Below are positions 39,369 to 48,500 of a stretch of 64,000 bases of DNA, in pieces (the first letter of the stretch is position 1; every line of letters starts with the position of its first letter). Below the pieces are notes generated by a model, which saw only the letters and a program-made list of their open reading frames with translations, did no database searches and had not been told where the DNA came from. The DNA is taken from the NCBI RefSeq assembly GCF_031851795.1, contig NZ_CP134696.1, positions 4,050,501-4,114,500 of the forward strand, in the 5' to 3' direction. This DNA comes from Pontibacter sp. G13 (GTDB taxonomy: Bacteria; Bacteroidota; Bacteroidia; J057). Made by a program: the position numbers and the translations under genes.

Positions 39369-41321
39369 CTAGAAAGAAATGGAGAATACAGCCCTGCGCT
39401 CATTTCCGACCTGATCCTTCGCGGAGATCGTCAATTCATGGATACCGGGACTCGGGCGTTCCTCACCCCATTGATAGGTGATTCTGTCGGTCTTGTAGTC
39501 ATAGACAAATGGCACCCACTGTCCATCCAATTCTCCCCGAATGGAGAGGTGGTCCAGACCTGAGAATTCATCCTCGACTCGGCAAGAAATGCGTTGGGTG
39601 CGACTAGAGATCCTGGTTCCCTGCTTGAAATTGTGCGGACGGATGGTGGGAGCTGTTTCGTCCTTCATGAGGCAATATTCTCCAAAGGATCTGATGCTGG
39701 CATACATATTCCCGTATCCACCAGCGGTATTGCCGGCATATTCCCACTTGCCGCGCGATTTGACCGCTACCACCAATTTGTCCAATTCAGTGGGTCGATT
39801 GGGCTGTAGACTCACCACATACTCCTTGAATACCGGAATTTGGGAATTGCCCACTCGGTATCGGTCGCTGAACATGTCAGGACTTCCAGGTAGGCGTTGA
39901 ATCGTCAAATGAACCTGATCGAAAACCGAATGATGCGGGAAGTATAGCTGCATTTCCCCGAAAGGAATCATGCTGCTTTGATCCGATCGAATCAACGTTT
40001 GTAGTGGAATGTCCAATTGGTGAAGGCTGTCCGCAGTGGCTACGGATTGGGGGTAGGTATATGGGTCGAGGGTTTCGAGGAAAATCCATTGACCATCCTG
40101 CGAATATGCGGGGTGCCAAGTATCCATTTCCCCATTTTTCCGGGCAACTTTCAATCCTTGTTGTTGGATCGATTGAGTGGCAGGCGTGAAGACCACCAAG
40201 GTATTTCTGCGGATGGTATAGCCGATGGATGCGCCAGAAGCATTGGGAAGCGGAGACATTTCTGGATCGCTCAAATCCTGTTGAATTTGACCCGTCACCG
40301 TCGTCAAGTTTCCATGTTCGTCCTCCAACTCAAGCTTGAGGTGGTGCACCAGCTCATCATCCAGTTCGATGAGTCCTTCCTTGGTATCTGGTCCGTAGGC
40401 AGGAAATCGATTGCCGGGCTCGATGTAGGCGCGTTGGAACCGATCTCGATGAGCGGATTGCCACTGGTAATCCATGTGGACATTGATGTACCGAGTCTCA
40501 TCGAATGCAAAGGTGTCCAAATGCATCTCGTGAATAACAGCACCATCTAGCGATAACCGCGCATGATTGATCCCGCACTTATTGGAAGCTGCATTGAGTA
40601 GATCATAAGCGAGGTATTCCACTCCGATTGCCCCTTTGATCAGGATGGGCTGAGTGATTCGGTAATCACCATTTCCGCCTGAAATAGGAGCGATGAATTT
40701 GTCGAAGGAGCCATTGACCCGGCTTTGGGCATCAAAGGGTTCAAAAGCCAATGACTTGAGAAGTGGAGGTTTGGTGTCCGCGATTTTATCCTTGTACCAA
40801 GACAATGGATTGAGGATTTGCTCCTTGGCATCGCGGATTTCGAAGTGGAGGTGGGGGCCTACTGAGGAGCCAGAATTTCCACTGAAACCGATGACATCTC
40901 CTTCTTTGACCGGAAATTGGTTTTTGGGAGGATAAATCTCTTGAGGGGTTTGCTCGGTCTGGTACTGCTGTTCCTCGATGAAAGCTGCGAGATGCGCAGG
41001 AAAAGATTCCAAATGCGCATACACAGAGTAATTTCCGTCTGTGTGCTTGAGATACACGGCATTGCCAAACCCAAAAGGACTTACCTTGAGGCGGTATACG
41101 TATCCATCGGTAATGGCATGGATGGGTATGCCCGTTTCTCCATACGTCTTGATATCAATCCCTGAATGGAAATGATTGCGTCGGAGTTCTCCATAAGTCC
41201 CCGAAAGGGCAAAATGGCGGTCAAAGGGAAAGCGATAGGGTTCGGATACCCCTACCATTCCACAAATCAACAACAAACAGAGCGAAGCCAGGAGGAAGGT
41301 AGCGGTACGGTTACCGAACAT
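39369..41321 (-). CDS. M23 family metallopeptidase (LytM-like), exported
   Basis: 650 aa from ATG 41321 (an ATG three codons earlier at 41330 is also possible). A signal peptide covers about residues 1-24. The M23 domain lies right after it: HFHSGIDIKT supplies His and Asp zinc ligands, and GPHLHFEIRD the HxH pair. These enzymes cut peptidoglycan cross-links. The following 450 residues are beta-rich, Ig-like modules with a final GIHELTISAKDQVGNERRAVF segment, an architecture common in Bacteroidota. It overlaps the 3' end of the FAH-family gene by 11 bases, so translation is probably coupled. Confidence 0.93.
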   Translation of the reverse strand: MFGNRTATFLLASLCLLLICGMVGVSEPYRFPFDRHFALSGTYGELRRNHFHSGIDIKTYGETGIPIHAITDGYVYRLKVSPFGFGNAVYLKHTDGNYSVYAHLESFPAHLAAFIEEQQYQTEQTPQEIYPPKNQFPVKEGDVIGFSGNSGSSVGPHLHFEIRDAKEQILNPLSWYKDKIADTKPPLLKSLAFEPFDAQSRVNGSFDKFIAPISGGNGDYRITQPILIKGAIGVEYLAYDLLNAASNKCGINHARLSLDGAVIHEMHLDTFAFDETRYINVHMDYQWQSAHRDRFQRAYIEPGNRFPAYGPDTKEGLIELDDELVHHLKLELEDEHGNLTTVTGQIQQDLSDPEMSPLPNASGASIGYTIRRNTLVVFTPATQSIQQQGLKVARKNGEMDTWHPAYSQDGQWIFLETLDPYTYPQSVATADSLHQLDIPLQTLIRSDQSSMIPFGEMQLYFPHHSVFDQVHLTIQRLPGSPDMFSDRYRVGNSQIPVFKEYVVSLQPNRPTELDKLVVAVKSRGKWEYAGNTAGGYGNMYASIRSFGEYCLMKDETAPTIRPHNFKQGTRISSRTQRISCRVEDEFSGLDHLSIRGELDGQWVPFVYDYKTDRITYQWGEERPSPGIHELTISAKDQVGNERRAVFSISF

Positions 41322-41922
41322 GAAAATCAAGCAATTTATCGCCTTCTAGGTACCCTTCAATGTGATCATCGATATGGAGCGGGCCAACCCCTTTGGGCGT
41401 TCCCGTGAAGATCAGGTCGCCTTTCTTGACAGTGATAAACTGCGTGACGTACGAAATGATCTCATTGACAGAAAAGATCATATCGGAGGTATGTCCTTCC
41501 TGACGAGTCTCACCATTGATGTCGCAGCGAAAACGGACGTTTTGGAGGTCCGGGAACTGCTCTGGCGGCAAGAATTTGGATACGGGCGCCGAGTTGTTGA
41601 ACATCTTGGCCAATGTCCAAGGGTGTCCCTTTTCTTTGGCTTCAGATTGAACATCACGCGCAGTCAAATCAAGGCCAATCCCGATTCCATCCACATAGGT
41701 ATGGACAAAATCGGGTTGGATGAATTTGCCTTCACGGCTAATCCGGATCACGAGCTCGCATTCGAAATGGAGATCTTGGGTGAATTCCGGGTAGTATATA
41801 TCCTTGTTGTTTCGAACCAAGGAAGTGTCGGGCTTCAGAAAAATCAGGGGCTTAGTCGGTACAGGGTTGTTCAACTCAGCCGCATGTGCCCGATAGTTCC
41901 TTCCGATACAAATAATCTTCAT
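41311..41922 (-). CDS. Fumarylacetoacetate hydrolase family protein
   Basis: 203 aa, short FAH-fold protein. Metal-binding Glu residues are in LHFECELVIRI, and the family segments GIGLDLTARDVQ and IFTGTPKGVGPL are clear. Members of this size include acylpyruvate hydrolases, oxaloacetate decarboxylases and 2-hydroxyhepta-2,4-diene-1,7-dioate isomerases; which reaction applies here is open. Its ATG overlaps the stop of the upstream lipoprotein by one base (TAATG) and its end overlaps the M23 gene, giving a tightly coupled three-gene cluster. Confidence 0.92.
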   Translation of the reverse strand: MKIICIGRNYRAHAAELNNPVPTKPLIFLKPDTSLVRNNKDIYYPEFTQDLHFECELVIRISREGKFIQPDFVHTYVDGIGIGLDLTARDVQSEAKEKGHPWTLAKMFNNSAPVSKFLPPEQFPDLQNVRFRCDINGETRQEGHTSDMIFSVNEIISYVTQFITVKKGDLIFTGTPKGVGPLHIDDHIEGYLEGDKLLDFHVR

Positions 41923-42347
41923 TAATCACAGGTGCCTTTGACCAAGGTCTTGCCATCAAACAAGTCCTTGATGGTGATTTGGTCTTCCTCTCCACCGATA
42001 AATCCTTCTTCTTTATTCCAGATCACCATGTCCATTTCACAGTCGTTGAAGAAACTGTTGTTTGGGCGGTCGTCCTTAGCAAATTGAATGACCCATTGGC
42101 TGTTTTCATAAACCAATTGGTAGGTGCCATTGCAAGACTCAGGGATAAGAGAATTGCTGAGCACCGCACGGATCATTTTCCGGTTGCGGTACGTGCTGTC
42201 AGTCAGTTCCAACCGATAGGTAAAACCGTCGCAGTAGCTTCCGACAATCCGTTCGCGGACCATATCTTCGGTAGGCGGAGTTGGGCCGCAAGCCGTAATG
42301 GCCAACGCCAAAGCAAAAAAAGATGAAATTGTGAAAAAGGTTCTCAT
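41922..42347 (-). CDS. Small lipoprotein of unknown function
   Basis: 141 aa. Lipoprotein signal with lipobox LAITAC (Cys 20). The mature domain has a repeated beta-strand character with four Cys (YCDGF, ESCNG, DCEMD, GTCD) that could form two disulfides. Family not recognised. Its TAA stop overlaps the start of the FAH-family gene by one base. Confidence 0.78.
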   Translation of the reverse strand: MRTFFTISSFFALALAITACGPTPPTEDMVRERIVGSYCDGFTYRLELTDSTYRNRKMIRAVLSNSLIPESCNGTYQLVYENSQWVIQFAKDDRPNNSFFNDCEMDMVIWNKEEGFIGGEEDQITIKDLFDGKTLVKGTCD

Positions 42348-42485
42348 ACAGATCCTGATTGGAAAAAATGGATTGTGGGAATCCAGATCTTATAGGGTGG
42401 CATGTTGAGCCACGTAAAAATAAGAAATAACCCAAAACGAGCAACGGTCTAGTGCCCTCCAATCATCAAATCAGGGATAGTTGCT

Positions 42486-43268
42486 TCAAATTTGGGGAAA
42501 TTCCATCTCGGATTGAGCATGTATCTGACTTTTGGCGGCCCCCAAGTCCCGAATGAATGAGCCTGATGGGTCTGATTCCAAAGCAGTACCTACCACGATC
42601 ACATCGGCTCCTGCATGCCAGATTCTCATGGCATCTTCCTGAGTCCGAATTCCACCGCCGATGATCAAGGGGATATCAATCCGGCTGGAAACGGCATGAA
42701 TCATCTCGGTCGAGATACTGGAGTCAGCTCCACTTCCTCCGTCCATATAGATTTGATGGAGGCCCAAGAGCTCTCCGGCGATTGCGGTACACAACGCGAT
42801 CTCGGGCTTGTTGTGGGGAATGGGTTGGGTATTGGAAATGTAGTTGGCGGTCGTGGGCTTGCCCGTGTCGATGAGCATGTAGCCGGTTGGCAACACCTCA
42901 ATACCTGAGCCTTTGAGCAACGGAGCGGCTTCTACATGCCTCCCGATTAGCAGATCTGGATTACGGCCTGAAATCAAGGACAGGAAAAGAATCCCATCCG
43001 CCGAGGGGGTAATCTGGGTAGGACTTCCCGGAAAAAGGATGATCGGCAACTTGGTCCGTGACTTCATTGCCGGTACAAGCGTATGGATCGATGCATCCAC
43101 CGTCAGACTCCCACCAACGAGGAGGAAATCCACACCATGGGCTTCAGCCAATTCGATGACCCGAAAGGCTTCCAACTCCGAGGTCTTGTCTGGATCCAAC
43201 AACAGGGCAATGGCTTTGCGACCTGAAGATTTGAGCGAAGCGAATGTCTGTCTAAGGAGTTGATTCAT
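42486..43268 (-). CDS. Geranylgeranylglyceryl phosphate synthase-like TIM-barrel protein
   Basis: 260 aa from ATG 43268 (MNQLLRQTFASLKSSG); the 21 codons further upstream are not family-like. Signature segments are LLLDPDKTSELEAF, FLLVGGSLTVD, ILFPGSPTQITPSADGILFLS, and the phosphate-binding end IIGGGIRTQEDAM followed by ADVIVVGTALE. Bacteroidota carry such bacterial GGGPS/PcrB homologues, which couple an isoprenoid diphosphate to glycerol-1-phosphate; their role in non-archaeal lipids is poorly known. Monocistronic. Confidence 0.9.
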   Translation of the reverse strand: MNQLLRQTFASLKSSGRKAIALLLDPDKTSELEAFRVIELAEAHGVDFLLVGGSLTVDASIHTLVPAMKSRTKLPIILFPGSPTQITPSADGILFLSLISGRNPDLLIGRHVEAAPLLKGSGIEVLPTGYMLIDTGKPTTANYISNTQPIPHNKPEIALCTAIAGELLGLHQIYMDGGSGADSSISTEMIHAVSSRIDIPLIIGGGIRTQEDAMRIWHAGADVIVVGTALESDPSGSFIRDLGAAKSQIHAQSEMEFPQI

Positions 43269-43370
43269 GCTTAGGGATGGTTCCGGCCTTTGGCGAAAGG
43301 AACTGGGAGGGGTTTGCTGCGAAAATAACAAAATTGTACTAACTTATTTTCCACAAATAGGCACTAGGTA

Positions 43371-44948
43371 ATGGGACAACCAACCCCTTTGTTCTCCCTC
43401 ATTTGCCTGCTCTTGTCCAGTTTCTCCTTGTTAGGTCAACAACCTTCCTCCCATCGAATTGAACTCCTCGATTCGTCTATATCTGCTATTGACCCATTCT
43501 CAGGTGGTCTATCGAATCCTCTCTATGCCTCAAATAGGGCGGATAATGATCCATTGAGACGCACCATGGCCGAATGGGAGCCCGTAGCGTATCTGGTTCT
43601 CGCATGGACGCAATATCCCAATATCCTACGCGATGTCGTACAAGCGGCAAAACCCGAGTGTAAGATCATCATTGTATGCCGTGATTCGAATTGGGTAAAA
43701 TCCGACCTTTCCCAGCATAACATTTCTTCGCGTGGGATATATTATCTTCAAACTAATTTTAATTCCGCTTGGATCAGGGATTATGGTCCCCTTTCGACCT
43801 ATATCGGGCCAGACCAGCGACTTGCATTGGTCGAATGGAAATATAATCGCCCCAGACCTTTTGATGATGCAGTCCCTTGGGCCATCGGCAAATTTTTGGA
43901 CCTTCCTGTCGAATCCCTTCAAGATGCTTCGTTTCCTGTGATTCATACCGGAGGCAACTTCATGACCGATGGTTGGGGAACGGCCTTTTCGTCTGATTTA
44001 TTGATTTCTGAGAATCTGCTGTCCAATCCTGAAATCGATCCGGAAGCGGCAGAAAGAGGGATTGACGCCTCCCTGAAGGAGTTCATGGGGATTCACCGAA
44101 ACATCAAATTCCCAAGTCTTCAGTACGATCGGATTCACCATCTCGACATGCACATGAAGCTGTTGGATGAGGAGACGATCCTCGTGGGGCAATTCCCGAG
44201 CGGCGTGGCTGACGAGCCGCAGATAGAAGCCAATCTCGAATGGCTCGCTCGAAATCACCACTCTGTATTTGGCCAGCCGTATCAAGTGGTCCGAATCCCC
44301 ATGCCGGATGAGCAAGATATTTATCCGGATCGTCCCGGGATCCCCTATCGGACTTACACCAATGCCCTGATCCTTAATCGCAGTGTGCTGGTGCCTACTT
44401 ATCAAAATGAGATGGATTCACTTGCGCTGGAGATATGGCAGGATCTCATGCCGGGCTATCGAATCGTGGGGATCGACTGTAGCCAAGCCATCCTAGCAGG
44501 TGGAGCACTTCATTGCCTGACGCAAACCATTGGCGCTGAAAATCCTTTGGCGTTCCTTCATCGGCCCAAACGAGGAACTACCCTCGATTCTATCGGCTAT
44601 TCGATTCGAGCATTGATCCGGCATCCAGCAGGTATTGAATCAGCATCGGTATGGGTGGCTTATGGAGATAGCGAGACCTATTCCAAATTGGAGATGAAAA
44701 GAGACCGAAATGCGGAAGGCTACTGGCATGGGGTGATCCCCGATATTCCGGGAATCCACGATGTGCGATACTTTCTAGAGATCAAACCGGTGGGAATTCC
44801 GGCGCAGACTCGTCCATTGCCTGGGCCAAGTGGGGCCTGGAGATTCCATATTTCTCGGCTGAATGCTTCCGATCGGGAAGGCGCAAATGACCAAATAGAG
44901 CTGATGGGAGAGCGATTTTCCCTGATCCTACCTGCGATTCCACGATAG
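43371..44948 (+). CDS. Exported agmatine deiminase-family (peptidyl-arginine deiminase fold) protein
   Basis: 525 aa. Signal peptide (residues 1-22, LLGQQ). The deiminase fold has TNFNSAWIRDYGP, the HTGGNFMTDGWGTAFSS active-site segment, HLDMHMKLLD and the catalytic Cys in GGALHCLTQTIG near residue 385. This matches agmatine deiminase and bacterial PAD proteins, which remove imino groups from guanidines. Unusual features are the export signal and a C-terminal beta-sandwich-like extension of about 110 residues (from RGTTLDSIGYSI on). Substrate could be agmatine, free arginine or peptidyl arginine. Confidence 0.9.
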   Translation: MGQPTPLFSLICLLLSSFSLLGQQPSSHRIELLDSSISAIDPFSGGLSNPLYASNRADNDPLRRTMAEWEPVAYLVLAWTQYPNILRDVVQAAKPECKIIIVCRDSNWVKSDLSQHNISSRGIYYLQTNFNSAWIRDYGPLSTYIGPDQRLALVEWKYNRPRPFDDAVPWAIGKFLDLPVESLQDASFPVIHTGGNFMTDGWGTAFSSDLLISENLLSNPEIDPEAAERGIDASLKEFMGIHRNIKFPSLQYDRIHHLDMHMKLLDEETILVGQFPSGVADEPQIEANLEWLARNHHSVFGQPYQVVRIPMPDEQDIYPDRPGIPYRTYTNALILNRSVLVPTYQNEMDSLALEIWQDLMPGYRIVGIDCSQAILAGGALHCLTQTIGAENPLAFLHRPKRGTTLDSIGYSIRALIRHPAGIESASVWVAYGDSETYSKLEMKRDRNAEGYWHGVIPDIPGIHDVRYFLEIKPVGIPAQTRPLPGPSGAWRFHISRLNASDREGANDQIELMGERFSLILPAIPR

Positions 44949-44958
44949 GGAAGCCCCC

Positions 44959-44995
44959 AAAAAAGAATTCCCACGCCATCAAGTGCGTGAGAATT
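44959..44995 (-). terminator. Terminator of the small type B sorting-domain gene
   Basis: Stem AATTC-CACGC / GCGTG-GAATT with one mismatch pair, followed on the minus strand by a T6 tract. It lies between the convergent genes ending at 44948 and 45045. Confidence 0.75.
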
Positions 44996-45044: not shown

Positions 45045-45422
45045 TTATCGGACCAGGAGCAATTCGCCATTTTGGGTGTGAGAAGTTCCGCGACGGTTGA
45101 CGATCAATTCCCACTGGTAATACCCTTCTGGGAGCGGTACACCTTCGAATGAACCATCCCATTTGGCTCCGAGATCGCTACTGCTATACACGATCTGATG
45201 CGCTTCATTGATGATGCGGATGGTGAATTCTTCAGGCTCACATTCGAATTGAATCTCGAAGAGGTCATTAATCCCATCTCCATTCGGCGAAATGGCCGCT
45301 GGAACGTAGGATACGCATGTCTCCGGTGAAGGAGTGGCTGGCGCCTCCGTCAATCCCAAAAAGACGATTGACAGACAAGCGGAGCAGATGAGGAATAGCA
45401 GATTTCCGTATATCTTCTTCAT
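45045..45422 (-). CDS. Very small protein made almost entirely of a type B T9SS C-terminal domain
   Basis: 125 aa from ATG 45422, giving the signal peptide MKKIYGNLLFLICSACLSIV. The rest begins YVPAAISPNGDGINDLFEI and ends GYYQWELIVNRRGTSHTQNG, the full pattern of the gliding-motility-associated (type B, CHU-C-like) sorting domain. Such domains normally sit at the end of proteins of 500-3000 residues; here no cargo domain exists. It could be a truncated remnant, a minimal secreted surface protein or a decoy for the secretion machinery. It has its own terminator. Confidence 0.85.
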   Translation of the reverse strand: MKKIYGNLLFLICSACLSIVFLGLTEAPATPSPETCVSYVPAAISPNGDGINDLFEIQFECEPEEFTIRIINEAHQIVYSSSDLGAKWDGSFEGVPLPEGYYQWELIVNRRGTSHTQNGELLLVR

Positions 45423-47405: not shown

Positions 47406-47852
47406 TCACTCCGGCTTGCCAAAAATGCGCTGATAAATGGGCGCTCTGCCGGCAAATTGCGCGTACATCACCGGATAGATCAGCCTGTCCAAAATCCCTG
47501 AGCCTGTCGAATAGGTGATATCGTCGATAATGACCGAATGATCGCCAGCGTCCGCCACGGCATGTCGATGCTTCCACGTTTTGAGGGGGGATGGAATGAC
47601 GCGGCCCTCGTCAGTGAACCACGCTTCTTTGCCGTTGTCTTCTTCCTCGGTGATCGAGACCTCCCACAACTGCTTGACGACTCCGAAAAGTTTGACGCGA
47701 ATGTGAACCTCATCTCCTTTGTGGGAGCCATCAAAGCGCAAGATTTCAATGTCCGCTCCGGGGGGCGTCAATTGTTTCAGCAAAGCGAGATCGAACTGAG
47801 CGAGCACGGATTGGTAGTTTCCGGAAACCGGCGTTTTGAGTAACAAGTTCAT
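47406..47852 (-). CDS. SRPBCC (START/Bet v1-like) ligand-binding fold protein
   Basis: 148 aa from ATG 47852. The strand-helix pattern with GDEVHIRVKLFGVVKQLWEV, an acidic TEEEDNGKEAWFTDEGR loop and a C-terminal long helix ending YAQFAGRAPIYQRIF matches SRPBCC proteins, which bind hydrophobic ligands in a helix-grip cavity. Ligand and process are unknown. It is divergent from the next gene; longer upstream codons overlap that gene's coding sequence and are rejected. Confidence 0.78.
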   Translation of the reverse strand: MNLLLKTPVSGNYQSVLAQFDLALLKQLTPPGADIEILRFDGSHKGDEVHIRVKLFGVVKQLWEVSITEEEDNGKEAWFTDEGRVIPSPLKTWKHRHAVADAGDHSVIIDDITYSTGSGILDRLIYPVMYAQFAGRAPIYQRIFGKPE

Positions 47853-47939
47853 ATCGCTAGTTTGGCAAGGTATTTCGGGGAAGGCAAGGAAATTCATGCG
47901 AAAAAGGAACTTGTCCCCCACGATCAGGAATTTTCGGTT

Positions 47940-48500
47940 ATGTACGCGAATTGGCTCAAGGAAAAATTTCCCGTTGACGAACAGAATGGGTTCTACAAAC
48001 AACCTCACATGCCTGCCCGGGTATTGGGGAAAGTCTTGCTGCGGTTTACCCAGATTTCATCTCCCAGTGATGTGATCGCCATGCACCACTTTTCGGGGAC
48101 CTTTTCCTCGGGAGTCTGGTTGTTTACGGGTACGGGAGTTTACTATGATGAGGGAGATTTCTTGTATGAAGACATCAAGGAAATTCAGGTGAATGGGAAG
48201 AAGATGACTGTATTTGTGAATCAGCAGACCCAATTCATTCCTCATCAACTGACCGCCAAGAATGATCAATCAGCCGAAACGCTCCGGAGATTGCTCGAAA
48301 AGATCAGCCAATACGATCCCATTGCGGATCAATTGGTCGAGCATGCCTACGAGGGGTTTCAGGGAGCGGAATTGGACTGGCTCAAGTTGAGAGATGAAGT
48401 CATGAAGACCATCGATATGCTGTATGAGCGCTACAACGATGGCAAACTTTCCATGATGGAATACGAGTCCAAAAAGATGGAGCTGCTCGGTCGGTTGTAG
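47940..48500 (+). CDS. Uncharacterised protein with SHOCT-like C-terminus
   Basis: 186 aa if the ATG at 47940 is used. The frame is open back to a TTG at 47862, only 9 bases from the divergent gene's start, which would leave no promoter space; the protein-like composition of that segment keeps it possible. The middle region is beta-rich (SGVWLFTGTGVYYDEGDFLYEDIKEIQ), reminiscent of PH-like domains. The end, LYERYNDGKLSMMEYESKK, resembles SHOCT motifs found in small-oligomerisation proteins. Function unknown. Confidence 0.72.
   Translation: MYANWLKEKFPVDEQNGFYKQPHMPARVLGKVLLRFTQISSPSDVIAMHHFSGTFSSGVWLFTGTGVYYDEGDFLYEDIKEIQVNGKKMTVFVNQQTQFIPHQLTAKNDQSAETLRRLLEKISQYDPIADQLVEHAYEGFQGAELDWLKLRDEVMKTIDMLYERYNDGKLSMMEYESKKMELLGRL

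Follow-up and report, generated by a model that had tools for sequence, protein, structure and literature searches.

Does a type B sorting domain of the type IX secretion system (T9SS) that stands alone, with no cargo in front of it, mark the last piece of a decayed surface-protein gene, or is it a protein in its own right, and if so, what might it do? The question is raised by a small gene at positions 45045-45422 of a 64,000-nucleotide stretch of the Pontibacter sp. G13 genome (contig NZ_CP134696.1, positions 4,050,501 to 4,114,500), which we call the window. Judged by its sequence, the gene encodes a conserved free-standing type B C-terminal domain (CTD) protein, neither cargo nor fragment, and it belongs to a family of equally short proteins that have lost the R-[WYF]-G signature of ordinary type B domains.

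The coding sequence, defined by its open frame, profile matches and alignment, lies on the minus strand, from an ATG at 45422 to a stop codon at 45047-45045, and specifies 125 residues; the plus-strand reading of the same interval is interrupted by stops. The original prediction had the coordinates right and left the strand unstated, and the layout it described, a signal peptide followed by a complete sorting domain, is what we see. The protein begins with MKK and a hydrophobic stretch, together a signal-peptide-like N-terminus of about residues 1-27 (45342-45422, minus strand) that was recognized from sequence and hydropathy and has no lipobox in a lipobox scan. About 10 linker residues follow, and then the complete domain, residues 36-125, from an invariant Cys36 to an invariant Arg125 (45048-45317, minus strand). 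This domain is matched by PF13585 (CHU_C) over residues 40-119 at 51.6 bits (cut-off 27, E 1e-13) and by TIGR04131 over residues 40-125 at 42.2 bits (cut-off 35, E 6.8e-11), the latter match reaching the ends of both the model and the protein.

The gene was also predicted to have its own terminator and no coding remnant beside it, and both points were confirmed. About 50 nt past the stop codon there is an intrinsic terminator with an 11-pair stem and a T-rich tail, CTTTTTT (44966-44995, minus strand), one of 2 terminator-like sites found in the 1.1 kb scanned, where 1.0 would be expected. The 291 bp between the start codon and the stop codon of the upstream gene hold no long frame in any of the six readings. 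Within these 291 bp the full TTTG-TANNTTTG promoter pattern does not occur and a relaxed form of it occurs twice; sites resembling sigma-70 promoters are about as many as chance would give (2 found, 1.2 expected). The gene is probably transcribed on its own.

Within its own genome the gene is unusual. There are 33 CHU_C matches, 31 of them above the cut-off, and the window gene is the sole frame shorter than 473 residues among these 31; the other 30 span 473-7274 residues. We searched 60 relatives and 13 genomes of the host family (f1), and six of the 12 other host-family genomes (G001, G003, G004, G005, G006 and G007) carry a homologue, which together with the window gene makes a family of seven members. 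The original prediction had held that this is a stand-alone gene rather than a decayed large one, to be checked by a search for equally short homologues in conserved context, and had named long homologues with cargo as the sign of a truncation. We looked for such long homologues; the nearest homologues in the six genomes are 122-127 residues long with the start codons chosen (129-160 residues for the entire open frames), and some of them share flanking genes in pairs. In all seven members only 40-45 residues, signal peptide included, precede the SPNGDG motif, and there is no cargo region N-terminal to the CTD. The E-values of the domain matches and this retention of a short gene in relatives go beyond what chance would produce.

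A profile built from the seven proteins (A1) gives a bimodal distribution of scores in the 13 host-family genomes: the seven themselves reach 158.2-174.9 bits, and no other CTD exceeds 96.7 bits. Because this profile had been built from the members themselves, we ran a leave-one-out control, in which each of the seven outscores all of about 180 other CTD frames (107-134 versus at most 93 bits). The same holds with the mature domain alone (96-117 versus at most 88 bits), with a smaller margin for the G001 member (95.7 versus 86.4 bits). We also sampled 295 genomes of the class, scoring no more than 15 candidates in each; five of these genomes belong to the host family, and two of the five have the gene. 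Among the matches listed, none from outside the host family exceeded 90.9 bits. The seven form an exclusive clade among 177 domains, weakly supported (0.709) on about 90 columns. A seventh other genome, G009, has a divergent relative, a 157-residue frame whose domain has no cysteines and scores 69 bits, which we consider too distant for the family.

The alignment has 22 invariant columns: the initial Met, which is partly due to the choice of start codon, Cys36, Pro41, SPNGDGIND, Cys61, Trp88, Gly90, Pro96, Pro98, Gly100, Tyr102, Trp104, Gly119 and Arg125. The family keeps SPNGDGIND, W-[DN]-G, G-x-Y-x-W and the C-terminal strand, and the linker before Cys36 is variable in sequence and kept in length. 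The G006 member has a lipobox-like site. Among the matches listed in our literature search, in which subscription papers and preprints were mostly outside the scope, we found no paper describing a conserved family of stand-alone type B CTD proteins; this does not prove that none exists.

The neighbourhoods of these genes point to common descent, with position partly kept and partly rearranged. Flanking genes are common to five pairs: the window and G007, G004 and G007, G005 and G009, G007 and G009, and the window and G009. The G007 stand-alone CTD gene adjoins orthologues, in the same order, of a four-gene block that lies at 39369-43331 of the window (minus strand; 653, 203, 141 and 281 residues), and on its other side, a few genes off, it has genes in common with the stretch before the G004 CTD gene. 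The adjacency of block and CTD gene is seen only in the window and G007, at opposite ends of the block; nine further loci with the block (L199-L207, some of only 3-8 kb) have no CTD gene. In G005 and G009 an AAA-type gene (80% identical) adjoins the stand-alone CTD gene in differing relative orientation, and two genes from the vicinity of the G007 CTD gene have homologues in G009 as well. A 200-residue protein of the window with no Pfam match at E <= 0.001 (47406-48008, minus strand) has a 51% identical homologue about 5 kb from the G009 stand-alone CTD gene. For G001, G003 and G006 we saw no common neighbour on the stretches examined.

What sets the family apart in sequence is a single signature. 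At the positions corresponding to residues 70-75 of the window protein, ordinary type B domains have I-F-N-R-W-G; here EAH stands in place of RWG, and residues 71-76 are INEAHQ (45195-45212, minus strand), where the commonest residues in other type B domains are FNRWGQ. We compared the seven members with 173 other CTDs, which are distinct rows after removal of repeat loci and identical sequences, were mostly gathered by similarity to the window family, and include many frames cut by locus ends and two minimal stand-alone domains (L146 and L037). Arg73 is present in 156 of the 173 and in none of the seven, an aromatic residue at position 74 in 147 and in none, and Gly75 in 170 and in two. Only two of the 173, G248 and G009, lack both the arginine and the aromatic residue, and these are themselves minimal stand-alones. 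Among the 30 aligned domains of the window's own genome, 24 have the arginine, 27 the aromatic residue and all 30 the glycine, and none lacks both of the first two. The loss is specific to R-[WYF]-G: W-x-G (residues 88-90) and G-x-Y are retained.

We considered the Cys36-Cys61 pair as a second family hallmark and rejected it, since both cysteines also occur in 39 of 179 other aligned CTDs and in 7 of 30 in the window's own genome. In those 179 the first cysteine column is occupied in 50 and the second in 40; because the two nearly always co-occur, they probably represent an optional disulfide of type B domains. A disulfide to the gliding track through the C-terminal tail of PorP was also considered; the C-terminal 60 residues of 46 PorP frames contain no C-x-C motif, which is uninformative.

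AlphaFold2 run on the seven-member alignment gives a confident beta model, with a mean predicted local distance difference test score of at least 90 in each ten-residue block from residue 41 and an unstructured N-terminus. A Foldseek search of the PDB with the CTD model returned only two matches at E <= 0.001, a C5a peptidase and CopC. The T9SS entries rank lower, with PorZ 5m11 at rank 4 (template modelling score 0.48), 8glk_D at rank 6 (0.40) and the mirolase CTD 8qb1 at rank 41 (0.39), and all three are CTDs that we take to be type A. The predicted model therefore fits an immunoglobulin-like domain without singling out a T9SS CTD. By sequence, the best PDB chain, with others, is 9flp, the grappling-hook protein of Aureispira (4.6e-7), a match to the chain sequence.

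Type B proteins are reported to be held at the surface by PorP-like barrels (PMC9143113). We looked for PorP/SprF genes beside these and other short CTD genes. Two further sets of minimal stand-alones were picked by clear E-value gaps, without a profile: one in host family f52 (G248, G165 and G065; L228, L229 and L230), with clear members in three of 11 genomes, and one in f27 (G234, G326, G118, G325, G311 and G322; L248-L253), in six of 36 genomes. Each of these nine genes has a PorP/SprF gene at a distance of 0-12 bp, encoded on its own strand in the f52 set and facing it tail to tail in the f27 set. The G248 partner matches TIGR03519 (2.3e-60) and PF11751 (4.8e-53), and the other eight partners were found with a profile built from PorP frames. 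The lipobox pattern is present in eight of the nine proteins, the exception being G065 (GGGC); the start codons of G248 and G165 are uncertain, since upstream of the lipobox their frames offer TTG and GTG but no ATG. These pairs of a CTD-only gene and a PorP/SprF gene are possibly a new two-gene module.

Counting the seven family members, G009, G044 and the nine proteins of f27 and f52, there are 18 minimal stand-alones in host families f1, f27, f31 and f52; none has Trp74 and only one has any aromatic residue there. A nineteenth, G307 (L272, in f52), reads KTG and has no lipobox, so the tryptophan is absent in 19 of 19. We rejected two broader rules. That CTD-only proteins lie beside PorP genes did not survive a check of nine more short frames, of which L274 and L276-L279 are cut by contig ends and have RWG, L273, L275 and L280 are longer or have no evident signal peptide and also have RWG, and L272 is minimal. 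That all short CTD proteins lose RWG is contradicted by L024, L082, L212, L273 and L275, short proteins not counted as minimal, which keep Arg73 and, except for L024, the tryptophan; it is contradicted as well by the YRV..SMSN group, which keeps the tryptophan in five of five.

This group is a second kind of short CTD protein, marked by a conserved YRV..TSMSN segment some 35 residues long, with RWG intact (L219, L220 and L224 in f29, L210/L223 in f67 and L213/L226 in f20). A protein of 1600-2100 residues follows in L226 and L227.

By profile, then, the window protein is a member of the type B CTD family, yet it is no standard type B substrate, because we looked for cargo, for a carrier gene close by, as substrates usually have, and for the RWG signature, and found none of them. 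The name sorting domain, used in the original prediction, stands as a family match. That the domain still works as a secretion signal is doubtful, because R-W-G is lost, the protein is far under the more than 200 residues reported to be needed for a type B secretion signal (PMC10202324), and there is no cargo to sort.

What such a protein might do is a matter of weighing. Our leading reading, to which we give a probability of about 0.37, is, by analogy, that the protein sits on a PorP/SprF-type carrier as its cap or as a mimic of its substrates. The protein would be exported by Sec, would fold with a Cys36-Cys61 disulfide, and would bind the outer-membrane carrier as a cargo-less ligand, so that the carrier would be occupied or stabilised with no payload delivered. 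Carrier binding is suggested because the nine f27 and f52 stand-alones abut PorP/SprF genes and have lost the same tryptophan, and because PG1035 has been reported in a complex with PorP, which its authors speculate it may cap (PMC9143113). Several observations weigh against this reading. We found no PorP/SprF gene adjoining any of the seven members or G009 on the stretches examined (in G001 and G003 a contig end shortens one flank); the G004 genome has a porP gene that begins about 3.5 kb downstream of the CTD gene, and GldM-type genes about 7 kb downstream. The window's own genome has four PorP/SprF-like matches at E <= 1e-10, the nearest about 121 kb from the CTD gene, and TIGR03519 at this threshold gives 3-7 matches per genome in 13 of 13 host-family genomes, a matter of counts only, in genomes with and without the CTD gene alike. 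Over all minimal stand-alones a carrier gene is adjacent in nine of 19 and not in 10, the window family among these. G307 has no PorP gene within the 4.5 kb examined and G044 none within 14 kb; G307 belongs to f52, so that even this host family has an exception to the carrier link. The f27 pairs are convergent and form no operon, and long type B genes are also often beside PorP genes, which makes adjacency typical of the domain class. Finally, mutating each of five conserved motifs is reported to have abolished secretion of the SprB CTD (PMC12618676). We infer that RWG is one of the five, the paper not spelling out the motif letters, and if the RWG strand is the carrier-binding surface, loss of the signature could mean that carrier binding has been lost.

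A domain taken out of the T9SS altogether is almost as probable: the protein would be a Sec-exported immunoglobulin-like mini-protein (in some lineages a lipoprotein) that has taken up a new role in the periplasm or at the surface, and the signature would be decaying since the T9SS no longer reads it. The missing tryptophan in all 19 minimal stand-alones, the ten without an adjoining carrier gene, the lipobox-like site of the G006 member and a length below the reported minimal type B signal all speak for this, but SPNGDGIND, W-[DN]-G, G-x-Y and the C-terminal strand are under strong constraint, and nine relatives lie against PorP/SprF genes. It was G307 and G044 that led us to lower the carrier reading from 0.40 to its present value and to raise this alternative. 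An ordinary, very small T9SS cargo, in which the CTD itself would be exported and then released or left on the surface like the 112-residue Fjoh_0547, seems unlikely to us. In its favour, the YRV..SMSN proteins, which are also short, keep their tryptophan, but the window family is without the signature, its linker is short and unconserved, no cargo activity is visible, and the reported length requirement again stands in the way. Taken together, published background and sequence evidence favour a carrier ligand or a repurposed domain over such plain small cargo, and they do not decide between the first two. As for a truncated remnant of a large adhesin gene, only the small size beside the other 30 CHU_C frames would suggest it; with six equally short relatives of the same architecture, shared gene neighbourhoods, the gene's own terminator, a signal-like N-terminus and nothing left in the upstream 291 bp, we reject it as very improbable.

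A wider form of the carrier-ligand reading would be that Bacteroidota have repeatedly made the type B tag a substrate mimic, with soluble or lipid-anchored CTD-only partners gating, capping or storing PorP/SprF carriers after losing the R-[WYF]-G contact on which ordinary substrates depend; in one host family the window proteins would then be a soluble version with no link to a carrier. We consider this rather unlikely as a whole. If carriers are in fact occupied by such proteins, there would be a new regulatory layer in surface-protein display and gliding. The recurrent loss of a single signature, together with the pairs of CTD-only and carrier genes, makes a natural experiment for telling the residues used in export from those used in carrier binding. 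Type B secretion is poorly understood, and a natural, cargo-free type B domain of 90 residues is convenient for structural and binding work; according to PMC12618676 (November 2025), no type B CTD structure had been solved.

Upstream of the CTD gene lies a short-chain dehydrogenase gene (PF13561; 45714-46526, minus strand), which we regard as outside the system. The convergent neighbour on the other side encodes a 525-residue agmatine-deiminase-like protein (PF04371, PAD_porph; 43371-44948, plus strand), and PAD_porph-family homologues of it adjoin the orthologue of the gene at 42486 in G003, G004 and G005. With 31 type B domains above the cut-off and only four PorP/SprF-like matches in this genome, either the carriers are shared or most of the domains are orphans. 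The GldM-type model TIGR03517 has two full-length matches about 3 kb apart in the same genome (G000:C1:4220128-4224659) and in the gld loci of G002, G004, G006 and G007.

Compared with the CTD of an SprB-like type B cargo protein, the window domain is alike in scoring above both curated cut-offs and in keeping the SPNGDGIND loop, the WDG loop and the C-terminal strand, whereas the protein differs in having no cargo, 125 residues in total, no R-[WYF]-G and no adjoining carrier gene in the window. Some small proteins with a CTD have been described that arrive at the surface or in the medium even when the T9SS is mutated: Fjoh_0547 is reported from the supernatants of sprA and porV mutants of Flavobacterium johnsoniae (PMC7712824), and PorA of Porphyromonas gingivalis (246 residues) is reported to affect PorXY-SigP signalling. 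Our likening of Fjoh_0547 to the window protein is by description and not by sequence. PorA has extra sequence before its CTD and reported homologues only in Porphyromonas, and its paper names PGN_1317 as the sole type B cargo of P. gingivalis. That protein, PG1035 (PGN_1317), is like the window protein a type B CTD protein; it is reported to be PorP-bound and non-essential for the T9SS under the conditions tested, but it runs at about 50 kDa and so is much more than a CTD, and carrier binding by the window protein is only predicted. Closest in build are the CTD and PorP/SprF pairs of f27 and f52, likewise minimal stand-alone type B domains without Trp74; they differ in having mostly lipoprotein signals, an adjoining carrier gene and the full Cys36-Cys61 pair in none of nine, and they form separate sequence families.
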